This document shows, piece after piece, positions 23,097 through 29,643 of a stretch of 64,000 bases of DNA. The translations under genes and the position numbers were made by a program. The stretch's first letter is position 1; each line of letters opens with the position of its first letter. Origin of the DNA: an uncultured Eggerthellaceae bacterium (lineage in GTDB: Bacteria > Actinomycetota > Coriobacteriia > Coriobacteriales > Eggerthellaceae); the NCBI GenBank assembly GCA_944321455.1, contig CALULI010000002.1, positions 124,001 to 188,000 of the forward strand, given 5' to 3'. Under the pieces are notes generated by a model. The model had not been told where the DNA came from. It did not search any database and saw nothing but the letters and a program-made list of their open reading frames with translations.

Positions 23097-24092
23097 TTAC
23101 GCCTTGATCCAAGAGAACATGGAGCGAATCTGTTCGCCCGTCTTTTCGATCTGATGCTCGTTGATAGCCTCACGCTGTTCAAGGAGCCACTTGTGGCCAT
23201 TGTTGCAGTCAGCAACAAAGTCCTTAGCGAATTCGCCATTCTGAATGCGCTTCAGGATTTCCTTCATAGCCTCACGAGACTGTTCATTAATTACCTTAGG
23301 ACCAGCATAGTATTCGCCGTATTCAGCGGTGTTGGAGATAGAGTAATTCATGAAGTGGATGCCAGATTCGTACATCAAGTCTACGATCATCTTCATTTCG
23401 TGATAGCACTCGAAGTATGCAAGCTCTGGAGGATAACCAGCATCAACCAAGGTCTCAAAGCCAGCCTTTACCAGCTCTACCAAGCCACCGCAGAGAACTG
23501 CCTGCTCGCCGAAGAGGTCTTCTTCAGTTTCCTGAGCAAAGGTTGCCTTGATGATGCCTGAACGAGCGCCGCCCATACCCCAGCAGTAAGACAGAGCGAT
23601 ATCCCATGCATTGCCCGTAGCGTCCTGAGCAACACATGCCAGATCAGGTACACCAGAACCTTCAACATACTGACGACGTACGATATGGCCAGGGCCCTTA
23701 GGAGCGCACATGATTACGTTAACGTTTTCAGGAGCCTTGATATAGCCATAATGAATGTTGAAGCCATGAGCGAATGCAAGCGTATTGCCTTCCTTCAGGT
23801 GAGAAGCAATGTGCTGTTCGTATACTTCTGCCTGCTTTTCGTCAGGAACCAACATCATGATAAGGTCAGCTTCTTCAGCAGCGTCATCCATGGTCATTAC
23901 CTTCAGGCCCATTTCTTCAGCCTTAGCCCAAGAGGAAGAACCTTCACGAAGACCAACGCGAACATCAACACCAGAATCCTTGAGGTTCAAAGCGTGTGCG
24001 TGACCCTGAGAACCGTAACCAATAATGGCTACCTTCATGTTCTGGATAACTGATGGATCGACGTCCTGTTCGTAATAAATAGTTACAGCCAT
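23097..24092 (-). CDS. ilvC: Ketol-acid reductoisomerase (class I)
   Basis: Isomerises and reduces acetolactate or acetohydroxybutyrate in valine/isoleucine synthesis. The 331-aa length is that of class I enzymes. The cofactor motif [12 protein letters not shown] is at about 23-34, with RxGxxS after it ([10 protein letters not shown]) suggesting NADPH. The [10 protein letters not shown] metal and substrate segment and the C-terminal knotted domain are present. Last gene of ilvDBHC; its GAAGGGA site is clear. Confidence 0.96.
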
Positions 24093-24159: not shown

Positions 24160-24188
24160 TCTAATAGATTACGTTTCTAACAGATTAC
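24157..24188. repeat. Two-copy 16-bp tandem repeat containing the ilvH stop
   Basis: GTTTCTAATAGATTAC and GTTTCTAACAGATTAC lie back to back with one mismatch. The copy at 24173-24188 contains the ilvH stop codon, and the copy at 24157-24172 repeats it downstream. Confidence 0.75.
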
Positions 24189-24670
24189 GAAACCTTAGAA
24201 CCACGAGACATAGCAATAATGCCGGTGCGAATGATTTCCTTGATGCCATAGGCACGAAGCAAATCTTCAATACCTGAAAGCTTCGATTCGGTACCCGTTA
24301 CCTCAATGGTGAGTGAGGTCTTGCCCACATCAACAATCTTGGCGCGGAATACGTTAGCAATCTCAATAATTTCATTGCGCTTTTCAGGAAGAGCATGAAC
24401 CTTAAACAAAACCAGTTCGCGCTCGACTGCCGCTTCTTGCGTCAAGTCAGTGATCTTGTGAACACTGATGAGTTTGTGGAGCTGCTTGGTAATCTGTTCG
24501 TAAGCAACATCATCAGCAATCATAACGATGGTCAAGCGTGACAGCGTTGGATCTTCGGTAGGTCCTACTGAAAGCGATTCAATGTTGAAGCCACGGCGAG
24601 AAATCAAGCCCGTTACACGGCTTAACACACCAGGCTTGTTCTCCACGAGAACGGAAAGAATGTGCCTCAT
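24185..24670 (-). CDS. ilvH: Acetolactate synthase small (regulatory) subunit
   Basis: 161-aa regulatory subunit with an N-terminal ACT domain (ILSVLVENKPGVLSRVTGLI, RRGFNIESLSVG) that binds valine for feedback inhibition, and a second ACT-like C-terminal domain. It starts one base after the ilvB stop with GGAGG overlapping that stop region, so the subunits are coupled. Confidence 0.95.
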   Translation of the reverse strand: MRHILSVLVENKPGVLSRVTGLISRRGFNIESLSVGPTEDPTLSRLTIVMIADDVAYEQITKQLHKLISVHKITDLTQEAAVERELVLFKVHALPEKRNEIIEIANVFRAKIVDVGKTSLTIEVTGTESKLSGIEDLLRAYGIKEIIRTGIIAMSRGSKVS

Positions 24671-24671
24671 G

Positions 24672-26483
24672 TTATCGCCCTCCTACTTCATGTTCATCAA
24701 TCATTTCCGAAATAGGTCCCACATTGACCGCGCCAATCATGTCATCTAATGGAGCACCTGGTGCAACCATGGGGTAGACGTTTTCATCGCGGTCGATGCG
24801 CATATCAAGCAAAGCGGGCCTATCAGCATCAAGCAGACGCTTCATAGCAGCTTCAAGCTCTGCAGGATCGCTCACGCGTTCTGCCTGCCAGTTATATGCC
24901 TCTGCCAGTTTAACGAAATCAGGAATATCAGGAAGGAGCGTTTCGCTGTAGCGCTGATTGTAGAAGAGGTTTTGCCACTGGTGAACCATACCCAATGCCG
25001 AATTGTTCACGATCAACACTTTGACGTTGATACCTTCAATGGCAGCTGTTGCCAATTCCTGGATATTCATCTGAACAGAACCGTCACCTGCGATGCAAAC
25101 AACCTGTTTTTCAGGGCATGCAACCTTTGCACCAATTGCAGCTGGCAGACCAAAGCCCATCGTACCTAAGCCACCGCTTGATAAGAAGGAGCGTGGTTCT
25201 TCGGTCTGAATGTGCTGAGCAGCCCACATCTGATGCTGACCAACTTCGGTGGTAACAATGGAGTTTTCTTGATCAAGCATGCTTGAGAGCAAGTCAAGCG
25301 CACCTTCAGGTGAAATGGAACCTGACGTAGCAGCCAGACCAGGACTGTAGAATGGATATTCTTTGCGCCATTCTTCAATTTGGTCAAGCCATTCCTTAGT
25401 CTGAGGTTCGCACGGTTCCTGTTTCAACTGCTCTTCAAGGCCAGCCAAAACAACGCGTGCATCACCAACAATAGGAATCTGTGGGTTGCGGTTCTTGCCA
25501 ATTTCAGCAGGATCAATATCAACATGCACAACCTTTGCATGAGGAGCAAAGTCAGCCAAACGACCCGTAACGCGGTCAGAGAAGCGGGCCCCAACAACGA
25601 ACAGCAAGTCAGAGTTCGTAACCGCATAGTTTGCGAAGCGCGAACCGTGCATACCAACCAAGCCCAGATTCAGCGGATGAGATGCAGGGAAAGCACCCTT
25701 GCCCATCAGCGTTGCAACCACCGGAATCTGAAGCATTTCAGCCACTTCGCGCAATTCGCGTTCTGCATGAGAAGAAATGATGCCGCCACCAATGTAGAGA
25801 ATAGGGCGCTTTGCATTGCGCAACATACCTGCTGCCTGACGAATCTGACGCGCATTACCCTTCACCGTTGGCTTATAGGAAGGCAGATTAACGTCAGATG
25901 GGTATTCGAATACCATATCTGCGCCAGCAAGGTCTGATGGTACGTCAATAAGCACAGGGCCTGGACGTCCCGAATTAGCAATATAGAATGCTTCACGGAA
26001 GGTCTTGGTCATATCTTCGCAGCTTTGCAAGAGATAGCTGTGCTTAACAATAGGCATCGTGATACCTACGATGTCAGATTCCTGGAACGCATCCGTACCA
26101 ATAACGCTGCGTGGTACCTGACCCGTAATAACAACCAAAGGAACACTATCCATGTAGGCTGTTGCAATACCCGTAACGGTGTTTGTTGCACCAGGACCGC
26201 TGGTTACAATAACAACGCCCGTCTTGCCCGTTGCGCGTGCATAACCGTCCGCTTCGTGCGTTGCGCCCTGTTCGTGACGAGCAAGCACGTGACGAATCTT
26301 CTTTGAGTCATACAGTGCGTCATAAATTTTAATTGCCTGACCTCCAGGGTAACCAAAAACGGTATCCACCCCTTCAGCTTCAAGGCAAGCAATGATGGCC
26401 TGAGCACCCGTCATGGTCTTGCCTTGTTTTTCTGTGAACGGACCTAAGCCGTTCTTTTCTTCGTATTCCCTATCAATAATCAT
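24672..26483 (-). CDS. ilvB: Acetolactate synthase large (catalytic) subunit
   Basis: TPP enzyme condensing pyruvate with pyruvate or 2-oxobutyrate. The catalytic Glu in [16 protein letters not shown] is at about residue 71. The FAD region, LMGKGAFP, and the TPP/Mg motif [12 protein letters not shown] near 450 are present. The start ATG at 26483 overlaps the ilvD stop (ATGA); an internal ATG 23 codons later (MTGAQAII) would give a more typical N-terminus. It is 603 aa from the first start. Confidence 0.96.
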
Positions 26484-28144
26484 CCAAAATACGCCCCCTT
26501 GTCGGCGCTCGATACAAGTTTTGCATAGCGCGCAAGAACGCCTGTCTTGTACTTAGGTTCAGGCTTTTGCCAACGTTCACGACGAGCCTGAAGTTCTTCA
26601 TCAGAAACTTCAAGTGTTAAACGACCCTCATCAATATCGATATCAATAATGTCGCCCTCTTCAACCAGAGCAATAGGACCGCCTGCAGCAGCTTCTGGGC
26701 TTACATGACCAATTGCAGGGCCCTTCGTTGCGCCAGAGAAACGGCCATCAGTAATAAGAGCAACATCGTGATCAAGACCCATGCCGCAAATTGCAGAGGT
26801 TGGGGTCAGCATTTCACGCATGCCAGGGCCACCTGCAGGACCTTCGTAGCGAATTACCACGACATCGCCCGCGTTAATCTTGCCACCAAAAATAGCTTCG
26901 CATGCTTCTTCTTCGCTACCGAATACGCGTGCAGGACCACGATGCTGGCGCATGTCAGGAGCAACAGCAGACTGCTTAACAACGCCACAGTTAGGAGCAA
27001 GGTTACCGCGCATAACGCGAAGACCGCCTACCTGGCTGTAAGCGTTTTCTACCGTACGAACAACTTCGCCATCAGCAGCAGGGCATTCTTCAAGCCACTG
27101 AGCCATGGTGCCGTGGCAGGTCAGTGCTTCAGTTTCCAGCAATCCCGCACGACCAAGTTCGCCCAAAATAGCAGGAATGCCACCAACTGCATTGAGGTCT
27201 TCAATATGCAGCGGACCAGCAGGAGCAATGCGCGTCAAATTAGGAGTCTTCTGGCAAACTTCATCCCAGTCATCAAGCGTAACAGGACAACCAGCTGCTT
27301 GAGCAATGGCGGTTAAGTGCAACATGGTGTTGGTGGAACCACCGAAAGCCATGTCCAAAACCATGCCGTTATGAACTGACTTTTCGTTGATAAGGTCAAG
27401 CGCGGTAATGCCCTGTTCAAGCAATTCCATAACCTTCATGCCCGCATGCTTAGCCAAGCGAATGCGCTCGGAATAAACAGCAGGAATGGTACCGTTACCA
27501 GGTAAAGCAATGCCTAATGCCTCAGACAAGCAACAAATTGAGTTAGCCGTAAACATACCTGAGCAGCTGCCACAGGTAGGACATGCGGTGTTTTCAAACC
27601 AGGTGCACTCTTCTTCAGTCATGGTGCCTGCCGTTACTTGGCCAACAGCATCAAAGAGCGTGTTCAGATCGGTTTCGTTGCCGCACTTGTCACGACCAGC
27701 AAGCATAGGACCACCCGATACCAAAACGGTTGGGATGTTCAAACGACATGCTGCAATTAACATGCCAGGAACAATTTTGTCGCATGAAGGAATAAGAACC
27801 ATTGCATCAAACTGATGGCCCTGAACAGCACACTCAACCGAGTCGGCAATAACTTCACGGCTGGTAAGAGAGTAATGCATGCCTTCATGGTTCATAGCAA
27901 TACCATCGCATACACCAATGGTGGTCATCTGAACAGGGGTGCCACCCGCCATGCGAATGCCCGCCTTAACCGCATCAGCAATAGATTGCAGATGGATGTG
28001 ACCAGGAATGATTTCATTTTGGGAAGAAATTACCGCGACTAAAGGACGATCGAGTTCTTCATCGGTAAATCCATCCGCCTTCAAAAGGCTTCTGTGCGGC
28101 GCACGCGCGAGACCCTTTTTTATAGAGTCACTTCGTAATTGCAT
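26480..28144 (-). CDS. ilvD: Dihydroxy-acid dehydratase
   Basis: Fe-S enzyme that dehydrates dihydroxy acids to 2-oxo acids, shared by valine, leucine and isoleucine synthesis. The 554-aa product from ATG 28144 (AGAGGT upstream) carries cluster-binding cysteines in [10 protein letters not shown] and [11 protein letters not shown], and the [12 protein letters not shown] segment. First gene of ilvDBHC. Its 5' leader contains a T-box-like structure and an attenuator, so control at transcription elongation is likely. Confidence 0.96.
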
Positions 28145-28176: not shown

Positions 28177-28208
28177 AAAAAAATCCTGTACAGTAAGCTG
28201 TATCAGGA
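28177..28208 (-). terminator. Attenuator hairpin in the ilvD leader
   Basis: On the minus strand TCCTG-A-TACAG, loop CTTA and CTGTACAGGA form a 10-bp stem with one bulge. Seven U follow directly. It lies about 32 bp before the ilvD start codon and so must be overcome for operon expression. Confidence 0.85.
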
Positions 28209-28210
28209 CC

Positions 28211-28425
28211 TCAAAAGCAAGCGTAAGTATGCAATACGACCTTTGACGGAGTCACCGATTCAACTTACTGATCAATTGCCTTGTTGGAGATCGTCCACGC
28301 AAGAACAATGATGTTCGGATTGAATAGCTCGGAGGGGGCTTTCAGACCGTCCAACGTCGATTTTCACCAACCATCGACTCTCTGTGGGAAGGATTCGTCC
28401 CTACTTTTCCTCTTCATAGCCTTTA
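28211..28425 (-). promoter_or_regulatory. T-box-like leader of the ilvDBHC operon
   Basis: The minus-strand leader has the landmarks of a T-box stem I: AGTAGGGACGAA (28406-28395), AGAGAG with a TCGAT/ATCGA distal stem enclosing GGTTGGTGAAA, then TCTGAAAGCC...CTCCGAGCTATTC. A strong hairpin follows (ATTG/CAAT, CTTG/CAAG, TGGA/TCCA around 28280-28314). At 28211-28245 lies an antiterminator-shaped helix TCAAAG...CTTTTGA with an internal bulge. In known T-boxes this bulge carries UGGN to pair with the tRNA NCCA end; here the aligned bases are UCGU. The specifier triplet is not clear (GCC or AGC by position). T-box origin is likely; normal function is uncertain. Confidence 0.62.
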
Positions 28426-28437
28426 TTTAATGCAGCT

Positions 28438-28465
28438 ATTATAACGCGCACATTCTAAAGTGAAA
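28438..28465 (-). promoter_or_regulatory. Probable promoter of ilvDBHC
   Basis: A perfect -10 TATAAT (28438-28443) lies 16 bp from a -35-like TTTCAC (28460-28465) on the minus strand. Transcription would begin just upstream of the T-box-like stem I. Confidence 0.6.
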
Positions 28466-28540: not shown

Positions 28541-28645
28541 TTGCGCGTATTTTTCATGTGACACACAAGCTGCTAGAGCATTGCATTTTTCATGAGGCGC
28601 ACGAGTTGCTGACCCGTTGCATTTTTCATTTGACGCGTTGCTTGG
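28541..28645. repeat. Three-copy degenerate repeat upstream of lysR
   Basis: Units of about 40, 36 and 29 bp begin at 28541, 28581 and 28617. They share TTGC...TTTTTCAT, a G(A/C)C(A/G)CAC-like middle and a TTGCT end. They lie just before the lysR promoter region and could bind the regulator or be a decayed tandem duplication. Confidence 0.6.
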
Positions 28646-28740: not shown

Positions 28741-29643
28741 ATGAACCTTGCCCATTTACGCTACTTCGAAACCTTAGTGCAAACAAAAAGCTATCAAGAA
28801 ACAGCACGTATTGAATCGGTTTCTCAACCAACGCTTTCCCAGGCCATCAATGGACTTGAAAAAGAGCTGGGTGCGCCGCTTTTCATTCGTAAAAAAGGCA
28901 GTGTTGAGCTCACACGTGAAGGACGTGCCTTCTCAAATTACGTGCGGGCTTCATTGCGCTTTTTGGATAATGGGATTGATTACGTACAGAGCACATCGGG
29001 TAGAGCACGTAAGGAAATTTCGATTGGCTCAATTTATTCCGCCCAGAGTAAAGACTGGTCCAATCTCATTTATGAATACCGCTGCTTAATGCAGGGAAAT
29101 ATCAAGATCAACATTGAACAGTCAACAACGCAAGATCTTCTTCGACGCGTTAAAGATGGTCGTGTCGACGTTGTCTTCTGCGGCAAAATGGACGTCGATA
29201 GCGACCTTGCGTTTTACCCCTGCTGGACACAAGAGGCCGCGCTGGTTGTTAATCGCCTGCATCCCTTGAGCAAGCGCTCAGAAGTTTCACTGGAAGAACT
29301 GGGGCACCACTATCTTATCTCGTATCGCCTCAACAGTCCCCTCTCCCACGAGATAACCCAACTGACCCGCGGCTACAACCTACGTTGCAACTATGGGTTT
29401 AACGACGAAATTACCTTGGCCTCCATTGTGGCAGCCAATCCTGATGTTATGGCCATTGCTTGCAATTCATGGCTGCTCCATTCGTTTGATAACGAAGTTA
29501 CGCGCGTCAAGATTACCGAAGCACCACAAGAGTTCAGGCAGATCTACTTGTGCTATCGAGCAGATATTGAAAAGCCACAAGTGGTGGAATCCTTTATTGA
29601 GCTGACGAAGAAAATGTTTCCCGAAAAAGAAGCTAGGCTATAA
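28741..29643 (+). CDS. LysR-family transcriptional regulator
   Basis: 300-aa regulator. The winged helix-turn-helix occupies about residues 1-60 (LRYFETLVQTKSYQETARIE, SQPTLSQAINGLEKELG). A periplasmic-binding-like effector domain follows with the EISIGS-type start and SLEELGHHYLISYR. It is divergent from ilvD, so ilv control is a fair guess, but it does not clearly match IlvY. A GAGGAG site precedes the ATG. Confidence 0.88.
   Translation: MNLAHLRYFETLVQTKSYQETARIESVSQPTLSQAINGLEKELGAPLFIRKKGSVELTREGRAFSNYVRASLRFLDNGIDYVQSTSGRARKEISIGSIYSAQSKDWSNLIYEYRCLMQGNIKINIEQSTTQDLLRRVKDGRVDVVFCGKMDVDSDLAFYPCWTQEAALVVNRLHPLSKRSEVSLEELGHHYLISYRLNSPLSHEITQLTRGYNLRCNYGFNDEITLASIVAANPDVMAIACNSWLLHSFDNEVTRVKITEAPQEFRQIYLCYRADIEKPQVVESFIELTKKMFPEKEARL

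Follow-up and report, generated by a model that had tools for sequence, protein, structure and literature searches.

A T-box-derived ilvD leader without UGGN in Eggerthellaceae and its predicted Stem II switch

The leader that precedes ilvD-ilvB-ilvN-ilvC on the minus strand of the window (the whole stretch of 64,000 nucleotides analysed, from an uncultured member of the Eggerthellaceae) is one that we would call a T-box derivative and not a T-box, as it descends from T-boxes and shares their tRNA-reading half, but fails the feature from which they take their name. Comparison of related leaders makes it very probable that its architecture combines T-box ancestry, the absence of UGGN, and a long helix between two strands, B and D (Table 1), that excludes Stem II and Stem IIA. 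The original prediction, of a T-box-like ilvD leader with UCGU in the place of UGGN, is right in substance and wrong in its base assignment. In the published accounts used here, T-box mechanisms rest on the contact between UGGN and the NCCA of the tRNA. If the present reading is true, a lineage-wide reader in which a Stem II switch replaces the discriminator would demonstrate that each half of a T-box is able to evolve without the other, and would offer a natural experiment on how much Stem I/II binding can report by itself. It would also link alanine, unexpectedly, to branched-chain synthesis in common gut bacteria (Eggerthella, Gordonibacter, Paraeggerthella, Adlercreutzia and relatives).

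The operon and the limits of the leader

The four genes of the operon were named from NCBIfam models matched above cut-off (Table 1). The leader had been placed at 28211-28425, where it does lie, but the feature runs further, to the terminator at 28208-28177. A terminator scanner did not report this hairpin, probably because of the bulge in its stem, and the output of a promoter scan did not include the TATAAT-like -10 hexamer. An ATTTTTCATGTGAC-like sequence occurs three times, at an exact spacing of 36 nt, between the leader promoter and a divergent LysR-type gene (28741-29643); these three copies (28549-28634) are possibly regulator sites.

Table 1. Features of the ilvD leader and its operon, in window coordinates
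Feature	Position	Strand	Basis or remark
ilvC	23097..24092	-	TIGR00465, above cut-off
ilvN (acetolactate synthase small subunit)	24185..24670	-	TIGR00119, above cut-off
ilvB (acetolactate synthase large subunit)	24672..26483	-	TIGR00118, above cut-off
ilvD, operon gene 1	26480..28144	-	TIGR00110, 758.5 bits, above cut-off
Intrinsic terminator, UCCUG(A)UACAG-CUUA-CUGUACAGGA + U7	28177..28208	-	Direct reading; hairpin -12.5 kcal/mol
Strand D, the other possible partner of B: 5' strand and loop of the terminator (GGUCCUGAUACAGCUUACUG)	28191..28210	-	Minimum-energy fold; covariation
Stem IIB 3' strand GUC, containing the U and C of UCGU	28238..28240	-	Family count; loop covariation
Stem IIA 3' strand CCG	28247..28249	-	RF00230 and family alignments
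Strand B: Stem II 3' strand, IIA 5' strand and IIB loop (CAGUAAGUUGAAUCGGUGAC)	28251..28270	-	Partner: Stem II/IIA/IIB or strand D
Stem II 5' strand (A)	28319..28325	-	Pairing possible with UUGAAU 28263-28258
T-box Stem I (base, specifier loop, distal T-loop module)	28327..28420	-	RF00230 and family alignments
Specifier GCC (alanine codon)	28337..28339	-	Register from ileS and ilvD leaders and TBDB rule (PMC7778990)
AGAGAG, T-loop module binding the tRNA elbow	28378..28383	-	RF00230 and family alignments
AGUA, specifier-loop S-turn, opposite GAA 28343-28341	28402..28405	-	RF00230 and family alignments
Leader promoter -10, TATAAT-like	28438..28443	-	By eye; TATACT-like hexamers at the equivalent place in relatives

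T-box ancestry

The check originally suggested, Infernal with RF00230, was run and gave a match over the whole model (28426-28224 on the minus strand, model positions 1-219 of 219, 73.4 bits, E 5.1e-16), with GCC as the specifier and no UGGN after Stem II; cmscan of the leader region against all of Rfam found no other family. The Stem I landmarks noticed at first sight (AGUA, AGAGAG, GGUUGGUGAAA and CUCCGAGC) are all there, so that the leader has a Stem I with the AGUA/GAA specifier loop and the distal T-loop module. The RF00230 alignment and counts in the family also give a Stem II with an S-turn and a IIA/B pseudoknot. In 55 of the 63 leaders a helix equivalent to Stem II has 5 or all 6 of its pairs (register at shift -1), a count that, like that of B:D pairs, takes the best register in each leader and is biased towards pairing. 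Inside Stem II, a small hairpin with an GGACGAUCUCC-like sequence (28286-28296, minus strand) is conserved across ilvD leaders.

The match stays below the RF00230 gathering score of 93 bits. This cut-off says little here, since the trpB-like and pheS T-boxes of the same genome, which carry UGGN, also fall short of it, at 89.6 and 35.2 bits; these two contain GGUGGCACC and GGUGGUACC, and the ilvD leader has no such sequence.

Absence of UGGN across the family

Searched at the DNA level, 15 of 59 relatives showed the leader. So that leaders would not be chosen for their similarity, IlvD was searched for in 109 genomes of the family (75 positive) and the upstream DNA was then read. Such DNA was available for 74 of the 75, one genome being excluded for a 5'-truncated match (G063); 72 leaders were read, those of two genomes (G062 and G120) failing the start motif, and 63 of the 72 could be anchored on the end of Stem I, IIA/B and the U-tract. 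The comparison with related ilvD leaders that had been proposed found the UGGN-less state in all 63 anchored leaders, with UGGNACC in none; GGUGGN occurs in one (G072), without ACC. The nine unanchored leaders, five of them Stem-I-like, have no GGUGGNACC in their last 350 nt. The control was 28 non-ilvD T-boxes (2 from the same genome, 26 from relatives of the family and order), of which 28 carry GGUGGN, although this set leans to good ones, being mostly the best match per genome and restricted to fetched loci.

The absence of UGGN after Stem II was therefore borne out, and the anchored ilvD leaders of the family do not present UGGN to the tRNA NCCA in a 7-nt antiterminator bulge. The proposal that U-C-G-U replaces U-G-G-U base for base did not hold, because UCGU (28239-28236) overlaps a strand of the IIB pseudoknot. 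U28239 and C28238 are the final two bases of GUC 28240-28238, which is able to pair with GAC 28253-28251 as Stem IIB; the window's IIA/B reads CGG-UGACU-CCG ... GUC. GUC stands at the IIB 3' position in 58 of the 63 leaders, and in some relatives the IIB loop and the downstream strand change together (GACAA/UUGUC, GGCC/GGUC). No antiterminator of strict shape (5 bp, then a 7-nt bulge, then 3 bp) begins at UCGU in the window; 2 of the 63 leaders have one at this place.

The observations named at the outset as fatal to the prediction, an intact UGGN elsewhere or a base in error, were both considered, and either now seems extremely improbable. UGG triplets are present in the window's Stem I and Stem II, and many relatives have UGGU in the terminator (GUCCUGGUGCAG); the three leaders of the window's genus, however, read UGAU, UGAU and UGAA at that position, and elsewhere pairing with CCGG explains the UGGU. 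The loss is common to 63 of 63 leaders and so is not a sequencing error. As a new contact for the tRNA 3' end, the terminator UGGU was rejected on the same two grounds, its absence from the window's genus and its pairing with CCGG. Another candidate discriminator, [AU]GGU right before the terminator, was set aside as variable and explained by the GAC:GUC pairing.

A pattern scan for the GCC specifier loop in a collection of genome contigs returned 64 stretches, 40 of them with a T-box-like continuation, of which 38 are titled Coriobacteriia and 2 have other titles (probably chance). Taxa with the GCC leader include Eggerthella sinensis, Gordonibacter pamelaeae, Paraeggerthella, Enteroscipio and Adlercreutzia, among others. 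The same GCC leader precedes ilvB in G028 (L254), a genome in which no IlvD match was found. In another genome (G132, L067) most of the distal Stem I is deleted, the terminator/antiterminator pair is kept, and B:D reaches -33 kcal/mol.

A helix in place of the discriminator

In the window, B reads CAGUAAGUUG-A-AUCGG-U-GAC and D reads GUC-CUGAU-A-CAGCUUACUG, and the two form 18 pairs in the minimum-energy fold of the leader. Across the 63 leaders, cognate B:D duplexes average -25.1 kcal/mol against -20.7 with D permuted (0/10000), one genome being wrongly anchored in this permutation and in both genus-level scans (G026) and a second in the permutation and the scan against D (G023). When whole leaders were scanned against D, with one genome per genus (31), the B windows stood out at z -5.0 and -7.4 (0/2000); one further window, near the terminator, reached z -2.7, and only B was strong. 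In the reverse scan, against B, the partner peak lay 30 to about 4 nt before the U-tract, which is D (z -7.7 and -8.6, 0/2000); a lesser peak adjoined B (z -3.8), and the signal at the 5' strand of Stem II was weak (z -2.1). Six leaders outside the 63 gave -24.7 against -20.1 kcal/mol (26/10000); they are eight T-box-like rows less two (L204 and L218) that have no U-tract and titles other than Coriobacteriia. Inner positions of B:D read UA, CG, UG and GC, with six pair types at one position. Canonical T-boxes as a control for B:D gave z -1.05 (16 of 29 loci anchored, some of the anchors rough).

These leaders accordingly show the mutually exclusive, covarying helices of a terminator/antiterminator switch. 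As B is shared by Stem II/IIA and D, there are two exclusive folds, and the tRNA-binding fold excludes read-through.

The question first raised, whether the element has decayed or has come to sense something different, was the right one, but decay of a single copy is refuted by the UGGN-less state of 63 of 63 leaders, the conserved Stem I and the covarying replacement helix. Judged from these leaders, the loss of UGGN is ancestral and not local decay. It is very unlikely that the leader is a decayed T-box with no regulatory role: the missing UGGN, an RF00230 score below the curated cut-off and the leaders of G105 and G124, with no U-tract and altered motifs, would suit decay, but the form is common to 31 genera, the replacement helix covaries strongly and Stem I is conserved.

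Ensemble folding, run without the pseudoknot on 60 of the 63 leaders (three with a long insert were excluded), counted more expected pairs for B:D than for the terminator in 22 of 60 and favoured the terminator in most of the remaining 38. In this model the mixed equilibria show a balanced switch and fix no default state.

The specifier and the tRNA

The specifier had been described as not an Ile, Leu or Val codon, and by position as GCC or AGC. The GCC register is confirmed by ileS leaders of the order, which read GAA-N-AUC-A-CC (the ileS genes being named by eye), and by the canonical ilvD leader of G042, which reads GAA-A-CUC-A-CC. The TBDB article, in the part used here, gives nucleotides 2 to 4 before the end of the specifier bulge as the first-priority specifier (PMC7778990). 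The pattern GAA-N-GCC-N-CC occurs in 49 of the 63 ilvD leaders, and the genome of the window has a tRNA-Ala(GGC) gene (L194). A proline reading (+1 frame, CCN, all CCN being Pro) was rejected, because a conserved G would go unexplained and the frame would lie directly against the helix.

AGAGA and AGUA are both present in all 49 leaders with GCC and in 4 of the 14 others, which indicates that the parts expected to serve tRNA binding are kept or lost together; the Fisher value of 8e-9 is a guide only, since it counts leaders, which do not represent independent events (one genus supplies four of the 14). These 14 have other triplets or loop lengths (GGC, AAG, CAA and others) and mostly keep B:D, which means that the switch can outlast the tRNA landmarks. 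On this evidence the leader probably binds tRNA-Ala.

The specifier does not match the regulated pathway, GCC being an alanine codon before ilvD, and the same scaffold might serve another ligand, with a metabolite or protein sensed and Stem I kept as structure. Several features are in line with this: contact with the 3' end is missing, alanine is a poor match to ilv, some lineages have lost the specifier and retained the switch, and the extra hairpin within Stem II is conserved among ilvD leaders. We nevertheless consider it unlikely, as the elbow module and S-turn are intact in 49 of 49 GCC leaders and mostly lost together with GCC, which points towards a reading of anticodon and elbow, and as cmscan matched no further RNA family.

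Proposed mechanism

In the mechanism that we favour, Stem I, the Stem II S-turn and the IIA/B pseudoknot would keep reading the anticodon and elbow of the tRNA, and its 3' end could not be tested by the known pairing, since the UGGN antiterminator is lost. In the OFF state, B would be paired inside the tRNA-binding fold, with Stem I docked on Stem II and IIA/B formed, and the terminator would be free. In the ON state, B would pair with D as a new antiterminator of up to 18 bp. Binding of tRNA-Ala(GGC) to Stem I/II would then favour termination, the opposite of a classical T-box, because the tRNA-binding fold and the antiterminator need the same strand B.

In the published work drawn on here, deletion of IIA/B weakens the binding of tRNA about 1,200-fold, and a bound tRNA promotes the docking of Stem I on Stem II (PMC7583486, PMC10651847). 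As IIA/B and docking matter for binding and B:D removes both, we infer that a bound tRNA would lead to the fold that leaves the terminator free. The conventional direction, in which tRNA-Ala promotes read-through by stabilising B:D or slowing the folding of the terminator, would agree with the way T-boxes work in the published accounts used here, and a terminator that is stronger in most of the 38 of 60 leaders in which B:D loses is what a default-OFF element needs. It is improbable in our view, because B:D removes Stem II and IIA/B, which those accounts find important for tRNA binding, and because no conserved UGG is left to hold the 3' end.

An inverted T-box derivative, with tRNA-Ala on Stem I/II favouring termination through the Stem II switch, is on the sequence evidence a credible reading, to which we give not quite an even chance. 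The direction itself, that tRNA favours termination, is graded just as cautiously; the binding of tRNA-Ala, the lowering of expression by it and the rationale are our inferences. Pyruvate is the substrate both of acetolactate synthase and of alanine. A possible rationale is that pyruvate would be spared when free tRNA-Ala accumulates, by lowering ilvD-ilvB-ilvN-ilvC. EF-Tu holds charged tRNA, and in this way charged and free tRNA might still be told apart.

More tentative is the full account, which would make the leader an aminoacylation-blind inverted T-box in which tRNA-Ala locks Stem II, terminates the ilv operon and protects pyruvate. In that account the class would have evolved from a Leu T-box that lost its discriminator, with translational versions in other families of the order. 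Against the inverted model, one would not expect an ilv operon to answer to alanine; by analogy with glycine T-boxes, a long Stem I that holds the tRNA without Stem II may also weaken the coupling.

Relation to known systems and other families

Class I T-boxes (RF00230) share with the ilvD leader the S-turn specifier loop, the T-loop module, the Stem II S-turn, IIA/B, a terminator and an amino-acid operon. The leader differs from them in having no UGGN antiterminator, in pairing the Stem II 3' strand and IIA with the terminator as a long antiterminator helix, and in its GCC specifier before ilvD. The Leu T-box before ilvD in G042 (L097), which belongs to another family of the order, has the same gene and the same Stem I/II/IIA/B layout, but contains GGGUGGUACCGCGG (UGGUACC) and has CUC as its specifier. 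Ribosome-stalling attenuators of ilv and leu operons use a 1:2, 2:3, 3:4 strand logic. The ilvD leader shares this logic; unlike them, it has no conserved leader-peptide reading frame visible by eye across Stem I/II, and its 1:2 helix is part of the tRNA-binding fold. In the class II T-boxes of Mycobacterium and Nocardia ileS, as far as the sources used here describe them, Stem II and IIA/B also clamp the anticodon, but UGGN is kept and the ribosome-binding site is controlled (PMC7583486, PMC10651847).

A description of this UGGN-less ilvD leader was looked for among open-access PMC papers and none was found. The TBDB article, in the part used, gives 48 sequences with a predicted specifier in which no UGGN was found (PMC7778990), and these may include the ilvD leader group.

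Two further families of the order (f4 and f10) have 27 ilvD leaders with a T-box-like end of Stem I, mostly with no U-tract before the gene; none of the 27 has GGUGGNACC at the place of the antiterminator, as judged by eye. With such UGGN-less leaders in f4 and f10, loss of the discriminator seems to predate these families or to have happened repeatedly. Many of these leaders have, by eye, a pyrimidine-rich strand complementary to the ribosome-binding region. Complementarity of the B strand to the anti-SD region in the translational leaders was not significant (535/10000 permutations, 26 of the 27 leaders). A pyrimidine tract in 19 transcriptional leaders, tested for pairing to the ribosome-binding region, reached uncorrected z values of -2.1 to -3.0 in 4 of the 12 windows and is no more than a lead. 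Several f4/f10 ilvD leaders, L141 and L143 among them, look like translational versions, with CCUCGCAUUUCUC facing an GAGAAAGCGAGG-like ribosome-binding-site sequence, and some have an upstream CGAGG...CCUCG hairpin that could compete.

Finally, a canonical T-box with GGGUGGUACCGCGG was seen before a membrane transporter-like gene, named by eye, in G004 (C9:1127176-1127408, L101) and in L102. The G004 copy lies about 1.3 kb upstream of ilvD, and the Stem I of this T-box is without the usual AGUA/GAA loop.
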